From NCBI GenBank assembly GCA_024403435.1, contig JAKSRV010000004.1:1-49803 (forward strand): 49,803 nt of DNA, given 5' to 3'. Made by a program: the position numbers and the translations under genes. This stretch comes from Lachnospiraceae bacterium. GTDB lineage: Bacteria; Bacillota; Clostridia; Lachnospirales; Lachnospiraceae. Of this stretch, positions 12,552 to 49,803 are shown piece by piece. Position 1 is the first letter of the stretch; each line of letters opens with the position of its first letter. The notes under the pieces are model-generated. The model was not told the DNA's origin and searched no databases. It saw nothing but the letters and a program-made list of their open reading frames with translations.

Positions 12552-12720
12552 GTCGCCTCCTAATTCGCACAAATTTCGTATGCGACAAGCGGTGACTGTA
12601 CACTCAACCGTGTGTGTCCTAAACCTTAGCAACGTTCAGGCAGGATTATTTTGCTCTTTCAAGCTTCCACACGTAGTTTCTGTCCTGAGACAGACTTAAT
12701 TGTAGTACAGTGACTTGTCG
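12552..12720 (-). promoter_or_regulatory. Structured S10 operon leader with possible ribosome-site switch
   Basis: The minus transcript leader folds on itself. A closing helix pairs 12714-12720 with 12583-12589 (CGACAAG/CTTGTCG) and 12705-12710 with 12596-12601 (CTGTAC/GTACAG). Inside lie a hairpin at 12679-12694 (6 bp, 4-nt loop) and a branch 12668-12673 with 12609-12614, capped by short pairs at 12617-12626 with 12638-12645. Bases 12582-12586 (GTCGC on minus) can instead pair with GCGAC at 12552-12556, which abuts AGGAGG of rpsJ; a third option is TCGCA/TGCGA (12581-12585 with 12565-12569). Mutually exclusive helices touching the ribosome site suggest regulation by an r-protein (inference). 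Confidence 0.6.
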
Positions 12721-12820
12721 TCAGTTTAATAACTTGACATTCGCTCCACGGAAAACCTGCATCCAGTTACCTGTCAGCAGCAACCTCACGCTTCACAGCT
12801 ATCATGCCACAGCAAGGAGT

Positions 12821-36444: not shown

Positions 36445-36738
36445 TAAAGAAGCACCCATACGACCATAAATAATACAGTCGTAAGGGTGCTGTTAGCACG
36501 GTTCCACCTTAACTTTTAACTTCAGATTCTATCAAATCCTATCCTTTCACGCAGGCTCACGGTAACGCTTACTGATTCAATCCGAATACCATAATCAAAT
36601 ATTCAAATGAACTTCGGCCCTACAGCTCGGGAATGGTTTTCGTCTACCTTCTGCATAAACAGCTTCCACCAAATGCTGTTCTCTCTGGATGTTTCCAACT
36701 AAACTACTCTTTTCCGTCATCGCTTTTCTTATGTTATT
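36445..36738 (-). promoter_or_regulatory. T-box riboswitch of thrS
   Basis: Leader between promoter and thrS with the T-box sequence AAGGTGGAACCGTG (36497-36510, minus), read by the uncharged tRNA acceptor end. Stem I features include GAGTAG (loop E) and AGAGAG (AG bulge); a likely specifier ACC (Thr) is at 36635-36637 in AAAACCATT, followed by A as usual. The terminator stem pairs 36451-36457 with 36485-36491 and inner arms, ending near UCUUUAGUUU. Low charged tRNA-Thr would favour read-through into thrS. Confidence 0.92.
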
Positions 36739-40256: not shown

Positions 40257-41003
40257 TCATTTCAAAGCATGTACGAAATCATCAATCACCATATCGATTC
40301 TTACATTCTCTTCGCGTGAAACCTCTTCGGCACTTCTACCCGATGCCTTCTCATCATACCAGCATGTCCTGATACCCACATTGTTGCCGAGGCGCATATC
40401 CGATGTCAGTGAATCTCCGATGATTACCATATCCTGCAACATCACATCGGGTATCAGTTCCTTGGCCTTGACCAATACCGGAGCAAAGAAAAGAGGATTC
40501 GGCTTCTCACTTCCGACATCTTCCGAAATAAAAATCGCATCGAATATTTGGTCCAAACCGGACAATGCCAGCTTTCTTTGTTGAGCTCGCTTGGTTCCGT
40601 TGGTAACGGCAAACTGAACCATACCTCTTCGCTTGAATTCTTCAATCTTCTCTCGCACACCGTCTGTAAAACATATAGTGTCTCCCAGACGAATCTGATA
40701 CTCATCGTTAAACGCATCAATCAATTCTTCGCTTGATAATCCGACATTTTTTATACCGTATTTTGAGAAAAACTCCCTGAATCTGCCTGCCAGCACCTCA
40801 GGCTTTGTAATCTCACCGCGTTCCAACGCCTTCCAGTATTTATGATTTATACCATCATAATCCGCAAGCATTTCATCAGTGCATTCTCCCAATTCGAACT
40901 TGGCAAAGCATGCTCTGATAGCGTTTTTTTGTGACTCTGTGAAATTCAAAACAGTTCCGTCCACATCCCACAGTACAATTTTTATCTCATCAAAATTAAT
41001 CAT
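40257..41003 (-). CDS. HAD hydrolase, YjjG-like nucleotidase
   Basis: 248 residues. All HAD motifs intact: nucleophile DVDGTVL (Asp 11, 13), motif II VTNGTKRAQQ, motif III Lys in SEKPNPLFF and motif IV GDSLTSD. The cap and NGTKRAQQRKLALSGL segment match YjjG/YfnB-type 5'-nucleotidases, which remove phosphate from noncanonical nucleotides. The ATG at 41003 overlaps the MutS-like gene by 8 nt; the frame is open to 41057 without support. Overlap with two MutS-like ATPases hints at a nucleotide- or DNA-linked role. Confidence 0.85.
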   Translation of the reverse strand: MINFDEIKIVLWDVDGTVLNFTESQKNAIRACFAKFELGECTDEMLADYDGINHKYWKALERGEITKPEVLAGRFREFFSKYGIKNVGLSSEELIDAFNDEYQIRLGDTICFTDGVREKIEEFKRRGMVQFAVTNGTKRAQQRKLALSGLDQIFDAIFISEDVGSEKPNPLFFAPVLVKAKELIPDVMLQDMVIIGDSLTSDMRLGNNVGIRTCWYDEKASGRSAEEVSREENVRIDMVIDDFVHALK

Positions 41004-42615
41004 TGTTAAGTACCTGCTCGTACAGCTCCAATCCAAAGCTCGTAAGCTCCGGTGCATGAGGAATCATCTTAAAGGTTCTGGTTCCGTCCTCTAAGTGTTC
41101 CGCACTTAAAAATGCCACCTCAGAATCCTTATCATCCTTAACTTCATCATACATCCTCTGTGCAAAGGAAAGAAGATGGGTTACCGTCATAATTCTGACA
41201 TGCTCTTCCTTAAGCGCCTTGATAATACCATAAGCGATGTTCGAGCCCTCTATCTCCGTTGTGGTAGCGAAAGACTCGTTAAGAAGAATGAGTGAATTCT
41301 CTCCCACATGGCTCACGATTCTGTCCATTCTCTTAAGCTCTTCATCCAATCTACCGCTGTTCATCGCACTGTCTTCACGCCTGGTAAAATGAGTAAAGAA
41401 ATTAGGATAGATACTGCTGCTGTACTGTTTTGCGCCCACCACAAGTCCGCACTGCATCATTACCTGTGCAATACCGACACTTCTTAAGAAAGTAGATTTA
41501 CCACCCTGGTTTGCTCCGGTAATAACAGTGAGTATTTTACCGTCGATGTTACCGGTATTACCGACCGCATCCTTTTTCTGCTCAGCAAGCATTACTATTT
41601 CTTTAAGATCGTCATAATTGAGTGCATCGCCATCCTTCACAACAGGGAAACAGTAATCAGTGTTGAGCCTATACAGCTGACGGGTGATATTAACGGCCGC
41701 TCTGTAAAATCCAATCTGGAAATACAGCTGGTCAAAGAAAAATCCAAGTGAATAAAGTACTTCACTGCAGTATGACATTACATAACTTACAACCTCAAAT
41801 TCAAGATTAGCTATGTTCTCCTGAATCGGTGGATTATTGTACAACGAAATACTATTGTTGGATAATTTTCCGAAGCTTCCCTGAAGCTTACCGATAATAC
41901 CGTTCGGATCTATACTGCTTATCTTTGTTTCCAATTCCGCAAGCTTCAAATCACCAAACTTAAGGCCATCATAAATACCACACTCAAAACTAATTTTGGG
42001 TACATTTACAGTGTACTTATTTTTTTCTTTTTCATGCGGCATCGAGTCTATATAAAACGATATATTGTTCAGTAAAATTTCAATACTTCTCTCAAGCTCC
42101 GGGGAGAATTCTTCCTCCATTCTGTTATAGAGATTTTGAAATCCCGCAGACACAAGTTTATCAAGCTTGGACTTAAGCAGACTTCTGACTGCACCCATAC
42201 TCGGTAAAAGAAGACTAAGTACACTAATATCCGTAACCAAACCTGCTCTGCTGTCTTTTGTGCCGGAATTAGTCTTCTTTCTTCCCAATTGATCCCAGTC
42301 ATAAAGAACCGTTGCCACAAGCTGATAAAGCTCTTCAATTACTTCTCTGTTGTTTATACAATCCTTAAGTATTTCCTGACGATAAAGAATCTCCTCTTTG
42401 GTCTTAAGCGGCACACGCATAACCTTACCCATCACGTCGCCCAAATGAGCATCCGGTCGCGTAATGTACATAATTCTGGTGCCCTTCATCACCAGGTCAC
42501 TCATCGACATATCAACTATAGTCCGGAGTCCGAGATCTTTGTATATACTGTCCCAATCATAATATGACTGAGTCTTAACCCAGTCCTTGTCGGAATAAAG
42601 CAAATTTACATTCAT
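40996..42615 (-). CDS. MutS-like ATPase, first of a pair
   Basis: 539 residues. C-terminal MutS domain V: Walker A GANQGGKST (about 367-375), an N-loop region FTHFTRREDSAMNSGRLDEEL, a Walker B-like LILLNESFATTT with Asn 446 in place of Asp, and VTHLLSF. The middle is helical, as in MutS domains III/IV. No mismatch-recognition domain I (no FxE) and no Smr nuclease tail, so it is not MutS1 or MutS2. Overlaps its upstream partner by 4 nt. Role unknown. Confidence 0.85.
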   Translation of the reverse strand: MNVNLLYSDKDWVKTQSYYDWDSIYKDLGLRTIVDMSMSDLVMKGTRIMYITRPDAHLGDVMGKVMRVPLKTKEEILYRQEILKDCINNREVIEELYQLVATVLYDWDQLGRKKTNSGTKDSRAGLVTDISVLSLLLPSMGAVRSLLKSKLDKLVSAGFQNLYNRMEEEFSPELERSIEILLNNISFYIDSMPHEKEKNKYTVNVPKISFECGIYDGLKFGDLKLAELETKISSIDPNGIIGKLQGSFGKLSNNSISLYNNPPIQENIANLEFEVVSYVMSYCSEVLYSLGFFFDQLYFQIGFYRAAVNITRQLYRLNTDYCFPVVKDGDALNYDDLKEIVMLAEQKKDAVGNTGNIDGKILTVITGANQGGKSTFLRSVGIAQVMMQCGLVVGAKQYSSSIYPNFFTHFTRREDSAMNSGRLDEELKRMDRIVSHVGENSLILLNESFATTTEIEGSNIAYGIIKALKEEHVRIMTVTHLLSFAQRMYDEVKDDKDSEVAFLSAEHLEDGTRTFKMIPHAPELTSFGLELYEQVLNND

Positions 42616-44102
42616 GAAAATCTCTCCTTTATCTGACTATAGGTTAATCTATACTTCTCAACCTGTGTGTTGGCACCCGCTATTTCTCTTGCATTTTCGC
42701 GTCCAACCTTAAAGGTTTGCTTGGCATTTTCATCTGTCGCTGCTCTGAAACTCACTACATTTTCATGCGATTTTGCAAGATCGTTTAAGTGAGTAACATA
42801 TATTCCGTAGCATCCGTTTCCAATAAAGAAATCGAGAACCTTTTTACCCATCTCACAGGCATCGAAATTAGCCGCTGTCGTAAAGAGCTCGTTTATTACC
42901 ACAAAAGCTCCCACATAATCCTTGTTCATCATCGGCTTAAGACGAACCAATTCATCCATCAGCTTACCGCGTCCGGTCTCGGCACTTTCCTCTACCGAAA
43001 AGTGTGAGAGAATCTGTGAGTAATACGGCACGCAGGCTCTTTCTGCAGCCACCGAGAGTCCCATTTTGGTAAAATAAATCATCTGTCCGAGACTTCTTGC
43101 GAACGTAGTTTTTCCACCCTGATTAGGTCCGGTTAAAACTATAAACTTTTCACCGTCACGAAGGTCAAAATCATTGGATACTACTTCCTTTTGAGCCTCG
43201 TAATTGGTGCACGCAAGAGCAAGATCATACATCTCTGACGCTGACAACTTTTCGCCTCCGGCTTCAGGATCACAAAAAGCAAATCCTCTCTCCTTCATCT
43301 TATTCATAAACTTAATGAACGAAAGATAATATGAGAATTCCTTCGGAAGATTCATTACCTCCCTGTTTACATACTTGTCTTTATTTTTTGCAAAAGCTGC
43401 AACTTTTACAAAAAAATCCTTATGGCTTTTTTTATACAATCTTATAACGGCATCCTCTAAATCAGACAACTCATCCGAGGCGCTGAACGGAGTCCTGAAG
43501 TTTCTTTTTACATTTGGAAAACTTTTACTAAGGAACTCCTCATAAGGCAGTCCACCGATTCCTTCATCAACAAAAATCTTGCCATTATCATAAGTAATCA
43601 GTACTTTGAAGCTACGAAGCTCGGCAAGAAGCATTTCTGCATTTTTACTGAGTTCTGTGTATTCCTTGGTATCCGTATATGTTTTGATAAAATCCCTTAA
43701 TCTGTTAATCCCCTCAGACTTAAGATTACTGTTGGCGAGTATGCTTTTAAGCAGCTCAACGGCTTCAAAATAAACGCCCACCTCTCTTAGGTACCACACA
43801 TTTTTTTGATCATGATCAGAGAGATTTTCAATCTTGGCCTTACATTCATTGCGCTCTTTTATCAGGTCCAAAAAAGCCATCAGTTTTTCATAGGTATCAT
43901 CCTTACAGATGTCCCTGTATACGCCACGTCTGTAATCCTCTTCACCGCGGCCGTCGGGCATAATATAATACAGTTGCCTAATCTCATCGCCCCAGTCTTC
44001 AGTGATTCTGTCAATTATCTGATCCAGATTTAGGTCAACAAAAAAAGCCGGAATAACACCGGGTTCTTGTATCTCTTTATCCTTAAATAATAAACTGTTC
44101 AT
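42612..44102 (-). CDS. MutS-like ATPase, second of a pair
   Basis: 496 residues, distinct from its downstream neighbour. C-terminal MutS ATPase: GPNQGGKTT (about 325-333), SVEESAETGRGKLMDELVRL, Walker B-like FVVINELFTTAA with Asn 404 in place of Asp, and VTHLNDLAKS. N-terminal half is helical (about 80-320) with a short beta part ITYDNGKIFVDEGI; no mismatch domain and no Smr domain. First gene of the three-gene operon with the other MutS-like gene and the HAD gene; GGGGAG and GGGGG precede the ATG. The two may form a heterodimer (inference). Confidence 0.85.
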   Translation of the reverse strand: MNSLLFKDKEIQEPGVIPAFFVDLNLDQIIDRITEDWGDEIRQLYYIMPDGRGEEDYRRGVYRDICKDDTYEKLMAFLDLIKERNECKAKIENLSDHDQKNVWYLREVGVYFEAVELLKSILANSNLKSEGINRLRDFIKTYTDTKEYTELSKNAEMLLAELRSFKVLITYDNGKIFVDEGIGGLPYEEFLSKSFPNVKRNFRTPFSASDELSDLEDAVIRLYKKSHKDFFVKVAAFAKNKDKYVNREVMNLPKEFSYYLSFIKFMNKMKERGFAFCDPEAGGEKLSASEMYDLALACTNYEAQKEVVSNDFDLRDGEKFIVLTGPNQGGKTTFARSLGQMIYFTKMGLSVAAERACVPYYSQILSHFSVEESAETGRGKLMDELVRLKPMMNKDYVGAFVVINELFTTAANFDACEMGKKVLDFFIGNGCYGIYVTHLNDLAKSHENVVSFRAATDENAKQTFKVGRENAREIAGANTQVEKYRLTYSQIKERFS

Positions 44103-44191: not shown

Positions 44192-44232
44192 CAAAAATGA
44201 CGTGCAAAAAATAACTCCTTTTTCGCACGTCA
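44192..44232 (-). terminator. Intrinsic terminator after the FUSC/HAD gene
   Basis: TGACGTGC/GCACGTCA (44198-44205 with 44225-44232) continued by an A/T-rich inner stem, followed on minus by ATTTTTGTTT. It begins 12 nt after the FUSC-HAD stop and separates this operon from the MutS-like genes. The remaining spacer to 44103 is AT-rich; no clean promoter was defined. Confidence 0.8.
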
Positions 44233-44244
44233 CATTTTACAGCC

Positions 44245-45543
44245 TTATATACTCTTTTTAATTCCAAACATCGGCTCATATCTGCGTCTGACATTTCTTA
44301 CCATATCATCAAAATTATTTTCTTTTATGATGATATCATACCTGCCCTCTATGGTACCAAGAGTCATGGTATTTTCTATGTCATAATTCTCCTTCAGATA
44401 CAACAGCATGTTTTCCTTGGAAGCATTTTTATTATAGATTTTAATGTATGAATAGCCGGGATAATCATTAGACTCATACTTAAGTATTTTCAGACGCTTA
44501 TCGTATTCATTTTCACATAACACCTCATAGAAAGCATCTATTTTGTCTGATTTATCAAGCAGCATAAAATAAACTACATTTTCATCGCCAGGGAATTCTC
44601 TTTTTATATAATTTCTAAACGGAGAAGTCTTCAACGTATTAACCAGTCTGCAATTAACTTCATCATCTGTATCGCCATAATAAATCAGCAGTGTATCATC
44701 AATAATAACATTGACATACGGACTAAAATCATGCTGCTTTATCAGGCTGTTGATCTCAGATGCCGATTTCGATGAGATCACATATTCCTTGACATACTCA
44801 CTGTTTTTGACGTCATATAAAGCGGCACCGTCCATCACTATTATCGGATACTTAAAATTGATATCAGACAGTGGTTCGATTACCGAAGCCGCAGTACGTT
44901 TTGTCGCAAGTGTAAAACGCATTCCGTCCTCTATCATACGATTGAGCTCGACCTTGGAAAACGCACTGATTTTATTATTCTCATCTACCAGAATATCGTC
45001 TACCCCGGATACAAACAATGTTCGTCTGTCCGGTCTGAAACATAAGCGTACGTTGTTGATCAGTATACCAATTACAATACCTATCATCGTATCCAGGAAT
45101 CTGTTCCACACAAAGCTGTACGGATTAACATCTCCGATATGATTGATAACAATACTCAAAAATACTACGCAGGAAAAATACGATGCCTGCTTTTTCTTAA
45201 TCAGTACCGTGGTATATAAAACCAGCACTATGCTTACGAACAGACATATAGCTTCTATCAAAAAATTGTGTCCGACTCCCCTGACAATATATGGATATCC
45301 CAGTATATATATCAATCCATACACCGCACCGGCTATTGTGCCGACTGTTCTTTGAATCGCATTACTTATAGTATTGCTTCGATACATTTGAATGCACCAG
45401 AGCGCAGCAAGCATTGAATAGAACACCATTCCCGATCCATTACGCAGCAGGTCAATCAACAAACACAAAGCCACTGCAATCGCGGATTTAATTATACGCA
45501 TTCCTATGCCCGGTATTCGGACTTTTTTACTCTTACCGGCCAA
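44245..45543 (-). CDS. FUSC/ArAE-type membrane protein fused to a degenerate HAD domain
   Basis: 432 residues, TTG start. N-terminal six helices (about 15-165) fit the aromatic-acid exporter (ArAE_1/FUSC) family: MRIIKSAIAVALCLLIDLLR, TVGTIAGAVYGLIYI, the second pore-like repeat RFLDTMIGIVIGILINNVRL. The C-terminal 260 residues align with Cof-type HAD phosphatases, but motif I DxDGTLL is GVDDILVDE (nucleophile Asp to Gly 180), TGR is TKR 214-216, and the metal site GDxxND is GTIEGRYD. The Lys in SKENML stays. So it is catalytically dead, perhaps a ligand-sensing domain. Three nt after the degenerate M14 gene, hence co-expressed. Confidence 0.8.
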   Translation of the reverse strand: MAGKSKKVRIPGIGMRIIKSAIAVALCLLIDLLRNGSGMVFYSMLAALWCIQMYRSNTISNAIQRTVGTIAGAVYGLIYILGYPYIVRGVGHNFLIEAICLFVSIVLVLYTTVLIKKKQASYFSCVVFLSIVINHIGDVNPYSFVWNRFLDTMIGIVIGILINNVRLCFRPDRRTLFVSGVDDILVDENNKISAFSKVELNRMIEDGMRFTLATKRTAASVIEPLSDINFKYPIIVMDGAALYDVKNSEYVKEYVISSKSASEINSLIKQHDFSPYVNVIIDDTLLIYYGDTDDEVNCRLVNTLKTSPFRNYIKREFPGDENVVYFMLLDKSDKIDAFYEVLCENEYDKRLKILKYESNDYPGYSYIKIYNKNASKENMLLYLKENYDIENTMTLGTIEGRYDIIIKENNFDDMVRNVRRRYEPMFGIKKSI

Positions 45544-45546
45544 GGC

Positions 45547-46476
45547 TTATTCATCTCCCAGCATCTTTATTACAGAGGTATTGGCGTATGTGAGAGGTGC
45601 ATTGTGGATAAAGAATATTGTACCGTCCACAGGTGCATACAGAGTCTCCAAAATAGTAGCCTCATAAGGATCCAAAATATTAGCTAAAGGAGTGCCCGCA
45701 TCAACCTTCTCACCTGCCTTGACCATAGGCTCAAAGAAGCCCGACTTCTCGGTTCTTACAGAAATGAGTTCCGTATCTTCAATTACACGAGTCTTCTTTT
45801 CGCTTATAGCGCTGTACTTGATGATTCCGCTGTTGGCAAGGAAATTCATTACAGCGATAACAGCCTGTCCTGCTCCGGTATTACTGATTCTCTCAGTAGC
45901 ATTGGTATAAAGAGAAAAAGCAGTGGTATCCCATACCTGCCAGTTGTAGTTAAGAGTAGCAGTATCATAAGGTCTTACACTTCTCTCTACAATATACTTC
46001 ATGCCAAACTTCTTGGCTTCCTCGGCAGTGGTATAACCCTCCTTCATATATCTTACGTGAGGCACAAAATCGCCCGGAGTATAGAAGGAAGTGAACTGAA
46101 TACCGTACTTATAATCCATGATTTCTTTGAACACACCGCCGGCTATTCTCTGTGTGGTTTCTCCCAAATCATAACCGGGGAACATTCTGTTAATATCCGT
46201 GTTATCGGTAGGCCAGAAACGCTTTTGAATATTTACGGAATAAGGATTAATAGAAGGTATAATCAGAATCTTGCAATTCTTCTTAATTCTTCCTTCATCC
46301 TCGAGCTGCTTCATTTTTTTAATCAACTGTGAGCAGCAATAAATCTGCTGAATTTCGTTACCGCGAGTATTACCTACTATACATACAGATTTGTCACCGC
46401 TTCCGAACTCATATCCGGTCACTCTGAAATCATCTCTGTACATTCCTTTTATTTCAAAAATAATTTTCTTATTCAT
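45547..46476 (-). CDS. Aspartoacylase/AstE-like protein lacking the zinc site
   Basis: 309 residues. Paralogue of the next gene upstream: same order, VCIVGNTRGNEIQQ, IPSINPYS, DINRMFPG (substrate Arg kept) and a C-terminal barrel with FFEPMVKAGEKVDAGTPLA ending in APVDGTIFFIHN. But zinc ligand His is Arg 38 (TRGNE for HGDE), the second His is lost (GIQFTS for LDIHA, near 129), and the catalytic Glu segment is changed. So it is probably a binding or regulatory subunit. Overlaps the active paralogue by 8 nt. Confidence 0.75.
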   Translation of the reverse strand: MNKKIIFEIKGMYRDDFRVTGYEFGSGDKSVCIVGNTRGNEIQQIYCCSQLIKKMKQLEDEGRIKKNCKILIIPSINPYSVNIQKRFWPTDNTDINRMFPGYDLGETTQRIAGGVFKEIMDYKYGIQFTSFYTPGDFVPHVRYMKEGYTTAEEAKKFGMKYIVERSVRPYDTATLNYNWQVWDTTAFSLYTNATERISNTGAGQAVIAVMNFLANSGIIKYSAISEKKTRVIEDTELISVRTEKSGFFEPMVKAGEKVDAGTPLANILDPYEATILETLYAPVDGTIFFIHNAPLTYANTSVIKMLGDE

Positions 46477-47422
46477 ACTTGCAGACCTCCTCCTTAAGAA
46501 TTCTTCCCATCAAAGAACCCTCATCAACTATAGGATATTCTCTGATAGTAAAAAGCATTCCTGCCAGAGGTGCGCGCACTTCATCAAGCACCCTTCCGCA
46601 CAGGGGATCTACAATTCTTCCGACTAAATCATTCGCCTGAAGTCTTGCACCATGGCTGACCTCGGGAATAAACAATCCGCTTGCAGATGCATTCAGATAG
46701 CTTACATCATCGGGCTTTCTGGATATCATAGGTTCTCTAACCTCAGCCACTTCTCCCGTCCATATTCCCAGTTCCTTCATCAGGTTAAAAATACCGTCAA
46801 TGAGCTGATCTCCATAGGTCTTGGTCAATCTCATTCCCACGCCCATCTCAACTACCAGTACGGGAGTACCGATACTGTTCAAGCTGTGAGCAAAAGTAGA
46901 TTCCAAAACAGTGCTTGCTCCATGCACCCAAATAAAGTCCACATTCGCCTTCTGCGCAAGTGGAACCAGGGTCTTCTCATGAAGCTCGTTAATTCTGATT
47001 TGGGGGATCTCTGTAAGATAAATATTGCTTGCATGAATATCAAGAACACAATCGGAACCTGCAACGTCCTCCATTATTCCCGCTGCCAAATACTCGGTCA
47101 TATTACCGTCAATATTTCCGGGGAACAATCTGTTCATATCGAGGTCAAAAGCAGGTATACCTCTGGTGATTGAATCTATGCCCAGAGGATTCATTGCCGG
47201 ATATATATCTACTATTCCGGCGAGCTTATCGCTTTCCTGTGCAATTCTTCTCTGCAACTCGTAGCACACATACTGACCTTCTAGCTCGTCACCGTGAATA
47301 CCGGTTACGATGCTGATTCTTTTCATATCACCGTCAGCCTTGAGTGCAGGCTTAATTCTGTTTTTTTGAATCATCAATTTTTCATCGATAGGCAAACCTA
47401 CCGATGCAATTACTTCTACCAT
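46469..47422 (-). CDS. Aspartoacylase/AstE-like zinc amidohydrolase (M14 family)
   Basis: 317 residues. Zinc ligands H43 and E46 in TGIHGDELEG and H130 in VLDIHAS; DMNRLFPG and VVEMGVGMRL supply substrate Arg and catalytic Glu; a C-terminal barrel-sandwich-like domain (GLFIPEVSHGARLQANDLVG, about 237-256) follows, with RAPLAGMLFTIREYP. The family removes acyl groups from N-acyl amino acids (aspartoacylase, succinylglutamate desuccinylase). In this cluster it may hydrolyse an amide made by the ATP-grasp. 29 nt after the transglutaminase gene. Confidence 0.85.
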   Translation of the reverse strand: MVEVIASVGLPIDEKLMIQKNRIKPALKADGDMKRISIVTGIHGDELEGQYVCYELQRRIAQESDKLAGIVDIYPAMNPLGIDSITRGIPAFDLDMNRLFPGNIDGNMTEYLAAGIMEDVAGSDCVLDIHASNIYLTEIPQIRINELHEKTLVPLAQKANVDFIWVHGASTVLESTFAHSLNSIGTPVLVVEMGVGMRLTKTYGDQLIDGIFNLMKELGIWTGEVAEVREPMISRKPDDVSYLNASASGLFIPEVSHGARLQANDLVGRIVDPLCGRVLDEVRAPLAGMLFTIREYPIVDEGSLMGRILKEEVCKYE

Positions 47423-47451
47423 ATTGTTACCTCTTATCCCTAATTATGCGA

Positions 47452-48246
47452 TCAATAATACTTTTCAACCTTAACCATAATGTCCTGAGTCTGCGTTCCG
47501 CCTCCCCACATTACACCGCGGTTGATAGCGCAATCCGTTGCGTCTCTTCCCACACCCAACTTGATATACTCATCTGTAATCTCGGTATCGTGAGTAGGAT
47601 CAAATGCGATATACTTGCCATCACATGCAGCTTCAACCCATGCATGACTTTTGCCCTCTCCGACAATCAGTCCGCACACATATCTGGCAGGAATTGAAAA
47701 CAGTCGGAGTAAGCAAATATAGATATGTGAAAAATCCTGGCACACACCTTTACCGCTCGAGAAACTTTCCTCAGCGGTAGTAGATACTTCCGTGCTTCCA
47801 CTCTCATAAATCATTCTTTCGTAGAGTCTGTGCATTATCTGATAGCACTTGTCTTTGTCTGAAGCAAATCCCATCACTTCGTCCCTTATTTCCTCTGCGA
47901 AGGCTTTGATGTCGTCTCCCGGGATACATTTTCCGTGCGGATATTTATACATTCCGACGGTATTGGAACTTACTCCTTCCGTAATACTAACAGGATGTGT
48001 CTCTACAAGACCTTTGATTGTAAAAACAAATTCTCCGTGAGGTTCACCCTCGCTTCCGATTATCTGAATGTTTCCAAAAGAATCTTTACTTTCAGAGTAT
48101 GTGGTCGGCGGAGTCAAGCTGATATCATACGATATACCAATCTGTCTGAAATCATTTGCCGGAATAGATTTTATTGTAAAGTAGCATTTATCAACCGGTT
48201 CCGAATAACTGATTTTCATAGAATATTCGTAGTTCAAAAAAGCCAT
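47452..48246 (-). CDS. Transglutaminase-like cysteine protease
   Basis: 264 residues. N-terminal beta domain (bacterial transglutaminase N-like, about 1-95), then the papain-like core with Cys 169 (GVCQDFSH), His 201 (SHAWVEA) and Asp 216 (FDPTHD), and the C-terminal RDATDCAINRGVMWGGGTQ, typical of the group next to alpha-E and circularly permuted ATP-grasp proteins. No signal peptide, so cytosolic. Likely a peptidase or amide-bond transferase on the product of the ligase. Confidence 0.9.
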   Translation of the reverse strand: MAFLNYEYSMKISYSEPVDKCYFTIKSIPANDFRQIGISYDISLTPPTTYSESKDSFGNIQIIGSEGEPHGEFVFTIKGLVETHPVSITEGVSSNTVGMYKYPHGKCIPGDDIKAFAEEIRDEVMGFASDKDKCYQIMHRLYERMIYESGSTEVSTTAEESFSSGKGVCQDFSHIYICLLRLFSIPARYVCGLIVGEGKSHAWVEAACDGKYIAFDPTHDTEITDEYIKLGVGRDATDCAINRGVMWGGGTQTQDIMVKVEKYY

Positions 48247-48263
48247 TTTAACACCTTCATTCT

Positions 48264-48929
48264 TTACGCAATAATAGCCTCTACGTTAGCTATTATTCCT
48301 TGATAATCTGTATTACTTTCATTGATAAGTGTACTTACGGTACTGAGAGAAGGCTCGTCATACTTGATTCCGCTTCTGAGTACTCTGGGAATCATTCTCT
48401 GAATCTCTCTCTTTAACTTATTCTTATCAAGTCTGAGACGAGCATATAAATCGATACGTTCTATACGCTTGCCGGCCTTGATTATATTTCTGATCTGCTC
48501 TACATCAATCTGGTCATCTACGATACCCCAGAATGACAATATCTCATCCATAATCTGCTGAAGCTCAATCATTGGAGAGCTGCTCTTTGCCGCATTGTTC
48601 ATGGCATAAATAGAAAGCTGAATATAAGACAACGCATCGGAACCGATAGTCTCTCGGAGTACAATAGCATTGTCATAAGCTCTGATCAGATTGCTGATGA
48701 TAGAGTCTGCTATAGTCTCGTCAAAGGGATATCTGCGCAGGAAATCCTCCTTTGATTCATAGATATCCGGTATATCCAAAGACTTGCAATACTTGTGATA
48801 AATTTCATCGTCTGCATCAATCATCATGTCGAAACTCTTGGCAAACAGATTGAGTGTTGTATAAACTCTCTCTGTATATCTGCCCAACCAATAAAGATGA
48901 TCAACCTGTTCTACTGAGATAATACCCAT
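48264..48929 (-). CDS. Alpha-E domain protein
   Basis: 221 residues, all helical, about two thirds of the usual 310. Start ISVEQVDHLYWLGRYTERVYTTL matches the alpha-E family (DUF403), which always accompanies circularly permuted ATP-grasp ligases and transglutaminases in comparative genomics; its job is unknown. ATG at 48929 overlaps the ATP-grasp gene by 19 nt. Only one repeat of the helical unit seems present, so it is a compact form. Confidence 0.85.
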   Translation of the reverse strand: MGIISVEQVDHLYWLGRYTERVYTTLNLFAKSFDMMIDADDEIYHKYCKSLDIPDIYESKEDFLRRYPFDETIADSIISNLIRAYDNAIVLRETIGSDALSYIQLSIYAMNNAAKSSSPMIELQQIMDEILSFWGIVDDQIDVEQIRNIIKAGKRIERIDLYARLRLDKNKLKREIQRMIPRVLRSGIKYDEPSLSTVSTLINESNTDYQGIIANVEAIIA

Positions 48930-49803
48930 GTGTCTTTGAAACCTCCGCCTTGTGATGAATTAACAATAAATGAATCAGGGTTACGTGAAAATCTTGTGAG
49001 GCCGCTTGCCCAAACTAAGGGTTCGTCAGCCATCAGTACAAATGCTCTTAAGTCTGCCTTTCTTGCTACTATCTCTCCCTCGTCCATGATATCGAGATCC
49101 TGGAAATCGATTACTTCCTGAGCAATAAATCTTCTGGGCTCAGCTTTCAGAAGAGTGATGAAATCCTCCTTCTGCTTAGCAGTCATGGTATTGCCGAATA
49201 CAACTCCGTAACCGCCCGCCTCAGCTACATCCTTGAGTACCAAATCATCGAAATGCTCAAGTACATATTTCATATCATCCTCATAGAAAGGAAGATAAGT
49301 AGGTGCGTTTTTAAGAATAGGCTCCTCATCCAGATAATACTTAATCATCTTGGGTACGAAATAATAAATACCCTTATCATCCGCAACGCCGTTACCGGGT
49401 GCATTGAGAAGCGCTACATTGCCTTTTCTGAATACGTCATATATATGAGGAATACCAATCAGTGATTCGGGATTAAAGTTCATCGGATCGAGGTATTCAT
49501 CGGAAATTCTTCTGTATACTGCTCCGATTTTTTCCTTCACTCCGCTCGCACCTACGTAATAAAGCAAATCATTTTCTACGAACAATTCCGAACCGGTAAC
49601 AAGATGTGCGCCGGTCTTCTCTGCCAGATACGAATGCTCAAAATAAGCTGCATTGTAACGTCCCGGAGTAAGTATTACGGTATGACCGCCGGTATTAACA
49701 TTATCCATTGTTCTGCGAAGGAGATCTGCATAGTTACGGTTATCAATCAACTTGATATTCTGGAATGTTTCCGGCGAACTCTTTCTGCAGAGGTCTCTCG
49801 CAA
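48911..49803 (-). CDS. Circularly permuted ATP-grasp amidoligase (5' end outside window)
   Basis: At least 296 residues visible; the frame stays open to the window edge and a TTG at 49750 is internal. Signature elements: NVALLNAPGNGVADDKGIYYFVPKM, VLKDVAEAGGYGVVFG (ATP loop), RRFIAQEVIDF, ADLRAFVLM and the C-terminal SSQGGGFKDTWVL, all characteristic of the DUF404/407 circularly permuted ATP-grasp family. These enzymes probably form peptide or amide bonds. Most upstream gene seen of the ligase cluster; N-terminal part missing only because of the edge. Confidence 0.92.
   Translation of the reverse strand, partial: ARDLCRKSSPETFQNIKLIDNRNYADLLRRTMDNVNTGGHTVILTPGRYNAAYFEHSYLAEKTGAHLVTGSELFVENDLLYYVGASGVKEKIGAVYRRISDEYLDPMNFNPESLIGIPHIYDVFRKGNVALLNAPGNGVADDKGIYYFVPKMIKYYLDEEPILKNAPTYLPFYEDDMKYVLEHFDDLVLKDVAEAGGYGVVFGNTMTAKQKEDFITLLKAEPRRFIAQEVIDFQDLDIMDEGEIVARKADLRAFVLMADEPLVWASGLTRFSRNPDSFIVNSSQGGGFKDTWVLSQ

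Follow-up and report, generated by a model that had tools for sequence, protein, structure and literature searches.

Which genes of a tightly packed group at one end of a bacterial contig form a unit, and what might such a unit do? The question is raised by six genes of a Lachnospiraceae bacterium (assembly GCA_024403435.1, contig JAKSRV010000004.1) that lie, all on the minus strand, between the contig end and a terminator-like stem; the window, i.e., the whole stretch of DNA that was analysed, comprises 49,803 nt. Three of these genes encode a CP ATP-grasp ligase, an Alpha-E protein and a transglutaminase-like cysteine enzyme (TGase), a set that was reportedly proposed by Iyer, Aravind and colleagues in 2009. 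They are followed by two related proteins of the M14 family, the intact M14a and the pseudo-enzyme M14b, and by FUSC-HAD, a membrane protein of the FUSC/ArAE type that ends in a HAD (Cof-type) domain. A first-pass annotation of this DNA had taken all six as one set. We found that the unit is real and well conserved, that the M14 genes belong to its core and that FUSC-HAD is an accessory. The M14-bearing version is a variant of the known ATP-grasp/Alpha-E/transglutaminase kind, and with a probability of about 0.5 we read it as a system for the synthesis and turnover of an amide or isopeptide, perhaps tied to glutamate or nitrogen, in which a complex of the enzyme M14a and the pseudoenzyme M14b would act as the hydrolase.

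The five-gene core (ATP-grasp, Alpha-E, TGase, M14a and M14b) is revealed by its conservation. In a survey of 246 genomes of the order, Alpha-E was detected in 17, and all 17 have a match to M14b on the same contig within 3.5 kb; strong M14b matches (>380 bits) were obtained in 22 of the 246. When GTDB genomes were scanned with M14a, 305 relatives were obtained; the best 80 were used as loci, and 19 more came from the surveys of the order and the phylum. The resulting 99 loci form 65 groups at 90% M14a identity and are not all independent, since at least one contig was apparently sampled twice (L011 and L116, contigs of equal length). The core is complete in 89 of them (19/19 survey loci and 70/80 of the others); this and the 17/17 linkage support the first-pass annotation in its pairing of an intact and a catalytically degenerate aspartoacylase-like protein, which are fixed partners. 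In nine incomplete loci the contig stops short of the missing gene (L006, L012, L017, L035, L042, L048, L049, L072 and L080); the stretch of L017 from the contig end to TGase holds genes for citrate synthase and isocitrate dehydrogenase, and for this reason its ATP-grasp and Alpha-E genes are unseen rather than proven. The tenth (L023) carries TGase and M14a fused as one open frame of 605 aa. ATP-grasp and Alpha-E overlap by exactly 19 nt in 85 of the 91 loci where this could be measured, and the gaps within the core are mostly short or overlapping; they extend to 1458 nt in L013, where a citrate synthase gene is inserted, and a gap of 1525 nt between TGase and M14a in L106 holds a NADAR-domain gene (L106:7646-8503). 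In the phylum survey (348 genomes), the Alpha-E Pfam profile matched 9 genomes, four of which have a full M14b (G000, G489, G535 and G578), and two of which, both of family f81 (G544 and G566), have the order ATP-grasp, Alpha-E, TGase, M14, M14 in diverged form. A survey of 145 genomes of the family to which a Treponema locus belongs gave strong M14b matches in ten, and regions were fetched for eight; one of these (L190) contains the five-gene core, and in another (L188) the contig end leaves M14b as the first gene, followed by FUSC-HAD.

In the window, the ATP-grasp gene (48911-49801) is cut, its 5' part lying beyond the contig end at position 49803. The remaining C-terminal 296 aa score 291.5 bits with PF14403 (CP_ATPgrasp_2, cut-off 32) and 263.7 bits with PF04174; relatives of full length have mostly about 440-480 aa, and one solved relative is 3n6x, a putative glutathionylspermidine synthase (E 2e-120). 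The Alpha-E protein (48264-48929) is a short form of 221 aa that matches PF04168 with 72.4 bits (cut-off 20.8) over profile positions 6-164 of 294 only, and a structure search gave no significant solved relative for it. Transglutaminase-like proteins use a Cys-His-Asp catalytic triad, and in TGase (47452-48246; PF01841, Transglut_core, 63.6 bits; PF08379, 37.1 bits) it corresponds to Cys169-His201-Asp216, present in 79/79 aligned rows. The last core genes are M14a (46469-47422) and M14b (45547-46476). All six genes were found where the first-pass annotation had placed them, with Pfam scores above the family cut-offs; the profile matches and the triad bear out the assignment to the known set, and the spacings, described as small or overlapping, measure -19, 17, 29, -8 and 3 nt downstream from ATP-grasp.

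In M14 enzymes of this type a His-Glu-His set binds zinc, an Asn-Arg motif binds the carboxylate and a Glu is catalytic. M14a is an intact zinc amidohydrolase of the AstE/AspA type (PF24827, AstE_AspA_cat, 86.4 bits); its His43-Glu46-His130, Asn97-Arg98 and Glu192 are invariant in 21 rows and in 79/79 rows, and align with those of DoeB and relatives (6twm, 3na6, 3cdx and 2qj8). M14b has the same fold (AstE_AspA_cat, 41.9 bits), with Arg38 and Phe128 in place of the two zinc-binding His residues and Tyr190 in place of the catalytic Glu, so that two zinc ligands and the catalytic residue are gone; Glu41 and the Asn96-Arg97 motif are retained, and the protein has an invariant residue set of its own. 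M14b is under purifying selection similar to that on M14a, and it is therefore not a decaying gene copy; the word degenerate, used for it in the first-pass annotation, holds for catalysis and fails for the gene. The nearest relatives of both proteins are deacylases of small molecules and dipeptide hydrolases.

In a tree of 50 rows, M14a and the first f81 protein split from M14b and the second f81 protein with support of 100/99, a split that is not proof, since long branches meet there (a warning of the tool). The M14a and M14b trees on either side of this split largely mirror each other: in each half, two Spirochaetota rows join one and the same Clostridia row (support 100/96 on the M14b side, 91/71 on the M14a side), and four pairs that stand without the trio, from the genome of the window and from G098, G139 and G115, cluster together (95/92 for M14b, only 88/52 for M14a). 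This shared grouping suggests that M14a and M14b move together. In the second f81 protein the zinc ligands are still present and the general base is gone; its stretch around DINRMFPGY and GETTQRIAD is shared with M14b. One duplication followed by a stepwise loss of catalysis in M14b would be the simplest reading of these two f81 genomes. Other observations on the pair can be added. The genome of the window has a second tandem M14a/M14b pair (C78, L086:5733-7718) behind a TetR-type gene and without ligase genes, and in one locus M14b bears a C-terminal methyltransferase domain (511 aa; L108:6669-8204, minus strand). Compared with L007, the operon of the window shows a dS of 0.52 for ATP-grasp and Alpha-E and of 1.2-1.8 for TGase, M14a and M14b; from this contrast, the operon may have a mosaic history.

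The gene content and order, the conservation, the lost residues and the mirrored trees are direct observations; from them we infer the complexes, reactions, substrate and direction of the following scheme. The ATP-grasp protein would convert a carboxylate into an acyl phosphate and join it to an amine, probably in a complex with Alpha-E, given that the same 19-nt gene overlap is found almost everywhere. The TGase-like enzyme would transfer or open an amide, and M14a, complexed with M14b, would cleave an amide that bears a carboxylate. M14b may serve as a structural, substrate-gating or regulatory subunit, since its carboxylate-binding Asn-Arg motif is retained. The substrate would belong to glutamate or nitrogen metabolism, which is suggested with modest confidence, and where FUSC-HAD is present it could export organic anions or form a channel for them, its phosphatase domain being dead. 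The favoured reading is supported by the 17/17 linkage, the 89/99 complete loci, the TGase-M14a fusion, the selection on M14b, the mirrored trees, the position of the M14 pair in the place of Anbu (see below) and the neighbours from the glutamate side of metabolism.

FUSC-HAD (44245-45543, TTG start; FUSC_2 45.3, ArAE_1 38.4 and Hydrolase_3 71.5 bits) is a lineage-specific accessory and not a core member. The first-pass annotation had it export, with sensing, an N-acyl or peptide-like amide made by the ligase genes and hydrolysed by M14a. In favour of such a six-part set, FUSC-HAD is found near the core in 32 of the 99 loci versus 1 of 60 control regions (20 core-carrying genomes, 813 kb), in several arrangements that include Spirochaetota loci; the 19 survey loci alone contribute 3. 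Against it, a full-length copy exists in only 4 of the 17 core genomes, linked to the core in 3, and of the 26 genomes that have such a copy, 22 lack the core. Thus, where conservation of the neighbourhood in related genomes had been expected, both M14 genes are kept beside the trio and FUSC-HAD only in part, and six genes acting as one unit is a very improbable arrangement. The fold of its membrane part resembles the plant ALMT channels. Cof-type HAD phosphatases have a nucleophilic Asp in motif I and another Asp in motif IV; the tail of FUSC-HAD has Gly180 where the nucleophile is expected, invariant in 17 rows and seen also in the alignment to 1nf2, in which the motif IV Asp is replaced as well. 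With the nucleophile gone, the tail is not expected to function like a standard HAD phosphatase, and a sensing role in export can only be conjectured. The tail alone found no match in the PDB with phmmer, whereas a profile search did match. In family f17 (L196-L203 and L211), FUSC-HAD occurs without the core, and a ThiF/TcdA-like gene, named by eye, adjoins it in 8 of 9 loci.

Clues to the substrate come from neighbouring genes, whose families were selected on the 80 loci and then counted in the 99 loci and the 60 control regions; each family was named from one scanned protein, and CysK was named from the sequence by eye, unscanned. A PuuD-like protein (gamma-glutamyl-GABA hydrolase-like) is encoded in 15/99 loci versus 0/60, isocitrate dehydrogenase (ICDH) in 13/99 versus 1/60, and citrate synthase, which in L013 stands between Alpha-E and TGase, in 9/99 versus 0/60; at least one of these three occurs in 27/99 versus 1/60. 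A cytidylate-kinase-like gene (13/99 versus 2/60) and an amino-acid ABC permease (8/99 versus 1/60) are also frequent, and the amino-acid ABC ATPase is not enriched (18/99 versus 11/60). Glutamyl or isopeptide amides fit these neighbours at least as well as an N-acyl product. Nitrogen appears in the literature on the trio as well: earlier work cited in PMC6376114 (in excerpt) found Anbu highly expressed in nitrogen starvation, and the DUF404/407, DUF403 and transglutaminase genes of Burkholderia cenocepacia are NtrC-dependent (PMC5491218, in excerpt). These nitrogen links, the precedent of the cyanophycin dipeptide hydrolase CphZ discussed below and the glutamate-side neighbours together suggest, with modest confidence, a glutamate- or nitrogen-linked amide.

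A different group of neighbours would fit a product with a cysteine or gamma-glutamyl-cysteine unit, such as a thiol or a sulfur store. CysK (cysteine synthase), CGS/CGL (cystathionine gamma-synthase/lyase) and a PatB-like C-S lyase lie near the core in 9, 9 and 7 of the 99 loci versus 0, 0 and 1 of the 60 control regions (any of them, 14/99 versus 1/60). In genome G150, on a contig other than that of the core (L207), CysK, PatB and CGS are grouped with the amino-acid ABC, cytidylate-kinase-like, FUSC-HAD and PPDK_N genes, accessory genes that elsewhere stand beside the core. GshA and EgtC-like genes are present in three loci (L029, L038 and L040), i.e., 3/99 versus 0/60 each, which is not significant. 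However, the 19 survey loci hold one CysK and neither CGS nor PatB, and glutamate-cysteine ligase (PF04262) was found in only 1 of the 17 core genomes versus 40 of 246 overall, so that a glutathione-type thiol is not supported and a sulfur-containing product in general is improbable.

Several results weigh against the synthesis-and-turnover reading. The neighbour families were picked from the same loci in which they were then counted, and the loci are not independent, which makes the p-values optimistic; the 15 PuuD loci represent only 8 groups at 90% identity, and the 19 survey loci alone contain 3 PuuD, no citrate synthase and no ICDH. M14b occurs without Alpha-E in 5 of the 22 order genomes that have it (G093, G193, G098, G139 and G115), and 3 of the 9 Alpha-E genomes of the phylum (G267, G462 and G413) have the trio with no M14b match. 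In the Treponemataceae locus L189, Alpha-E, TGase, M14a and M14b are dispersed over 9.5 kb, M14a and M14b being 4 kb apart, and no ATP-grasp was detected upstream of Alpha-E in the 1.1 kb that was fetched there. Five more Treponemataceae genomes (L191-L195) carry the M14 pair without the trio; in L191 (6175-13044), genes for a nucleotide cyclase and for a hybrid histidine kinase with an ABC_sub_bind domain come after it, and in L192-L195 it is followed by a gene of about 3.5 kb that in L193 (8042-13501), the only one of the four scanned, encodes a hybrid histidine kinase. Since the pair also exists without Alpha-E or the trio, the ligase product need not be the substrate of M14a. As to complexes, the study of the Anbu operon detected no specific complex of its proteins (PMC6376114, in excerpt), and no reported activity, complex or metabolite was found for the M14 version in the literature searched.

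The trio-less pairs in the genome of the window, in G098, G139 and G115, in the five Treponemataceae genomes and, by profile match, in G093 and G193 are what would be expected of an independent two-gene device, one that just happens to accompany the ligase trio. Such independence is rather unlikely in view of the 17/17 linkage in the order, the conserved gene order with mostly short gaps or overlaps, the TGase-M14a fusion in L023, the same arrangement in two diverged f81 genomes and the clustering of the four solo pairs in both halves of the tree.

The surroundings of the unit were also inspected. The first-pass annotation placed a terminator at 44192-44232; a hairpin of 15 pairs with a T-run (tail TTTTGTTTCT) does exist at 44197-44233 on the minus strand, and this match alone is weak evidence, because the scan yields 8 such sites in 9.8 kb versus 5.8 expected from shuffles. 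Downstream of the unit (40996-44102, minus strand) lie two adjoining MutS_V-type ATPase genes (496 and 539 aa) whose products weakly resemble KamC, the reactivase ATPase of lysine 5,6-aminomutase, with scores far under the KamC cut-off. These MutS-like genes were rejected as part of the unit, being near the core in 1/99 loci (L007). Among the 26 of the 99 loci scanned with Rfam, no riboswitch or T-box was found within 1 kb upstream of the core; the matches elsewhere in these loci were two tRNAs, a group I intron, glmS, a T-box and one sRNA. In the window, a T-box leader barely above the cut-off (36480-36729) and an S10-Clostridia leader (12715-12804) were detected, both on the minus strand. 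A role in anti-phage defence was rejected, given that no PADLOC match was obtained among the six proteins.

Comparison with known systems places the locus beside the Anbu operon, in which Anbu is carried together with the ATP-grasp/Alpha-E/transglutaminase trio (PMC5666114 and PMC6376114, in excerpts) and whose ATP-grasp protein, in Yersinia bercovieri, releases phosphate from ATP (PMC6376114, in excerpt). The trio has the same order here and the TGase triad is intact; the difference is that an M14 enzyme and its pseudo-enzyme are present, and no Anbu. Also, Alpha-E has about 220 aa here, versus about 300-340 in the f81 genomes and in two trio-only genomes. The Anbu family (PF00227) was found neither in the genome of the window (80.9% complete) nor in any of the 17 core genomes of the order, and the latter result led us to reject an Anbu hidden elsewhere in the genome. 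In 8 further Alpha-E genomes, PF00227 was above the cut-off in 7 and below it in one, and in none does it adjoin the Alpha-E cluster. Considering that the known operon has Anbu with the trio and that PF00227 is not found in or near the core, the M14 pair would occupy the place of Anbu. This position could also fit protein tagging, in which proteins would receive an amino acid or a peptide from the trio and lose this tag again through the M14 pair, a de-tagging role proposed for Anbu in work that cites Iyer et al. (PMC6376114, in excerpt); PMC5666114 (in excerpt) speaks of a peptide-synthesis system. Tagging is nevertheless unlikely, as the nearest relatives of M14a and M14b act on small molecules and dipeptides, and the recurrent scanned neighbours serve mostly small-molecule metabolism and transport.

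In the literature searched we found no product for the trio and no prior description of an ATP-grasp/Alpha-E set with M14, Iyer et al. (2009) not having been checked for M14. The M14 version occurs in cultured gut bacteria, with Eubacterium plexicaudatum ASF492 (L045), Roseburia sp. 1XD42-69 (L076) and Lachnospiraceae bacterium A4 (L034) among the carriers of the core, and its paralogous hydrolase pair gives a new handle on the trio: as the pair has relatives among the zinc amidohydrolases that have been studied, the substrate of M14a could reveal the ligase product. One such relative is the DoeB/AstE-AspA branch (N-acetyl-diaminobutyrate deacetylase and aspartoacylase), with which M14a shares the family and all catalytic residues, and M14b, in its model, the fold. 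The differences are a DoeB score of 68.2 bits versus a cut-off of 402.7 and the pairing of the hydrolase with a dead copy. Enzymes annotated AstE/AspA can also be isopeptidases, as is the case of the cyanophycin dipeptide hydrolases, which act on the breakdown product of the polymer (PMC10206079, in excerpt). The cyanophycin system combines the ATP-grasp synthetase CphA with the M14 dipeptide hydrolase CphZ; no synthetase was found here, 0 of 22 genomes being above the TIGR02068 cut-off (best 296 of 850 bits), so that cyanophycin was rejected and the product is probably a different one. A broader proposal, held only tentatively, is that gut Lachnospiraceae and Treponema may have in common an as yet undescribed isopeptide cycle that is linked to glutamate or nitrogen and corresponds to cyanophycin metabolism; in it, an obligate M14 complex would have replaced Anbu as the dedicated hydrolase, and M14b would have lost catalysis stepwise. 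M14a and M14b are a good case of a bacterial enzyme-pseudoenzyme system in which apparent intermediates of the decay are present. The vertebrate M14 pseudopeptidases AEBP1, CPXM2 and domain III of CPD share with M14b the replacement of the general-base Glu by Tyr and the loss of at least one zinc ligand (PMC11266112, in excerpt), but they belong to the carboxypeptidase branch and do not form an operon pair with an active twin.

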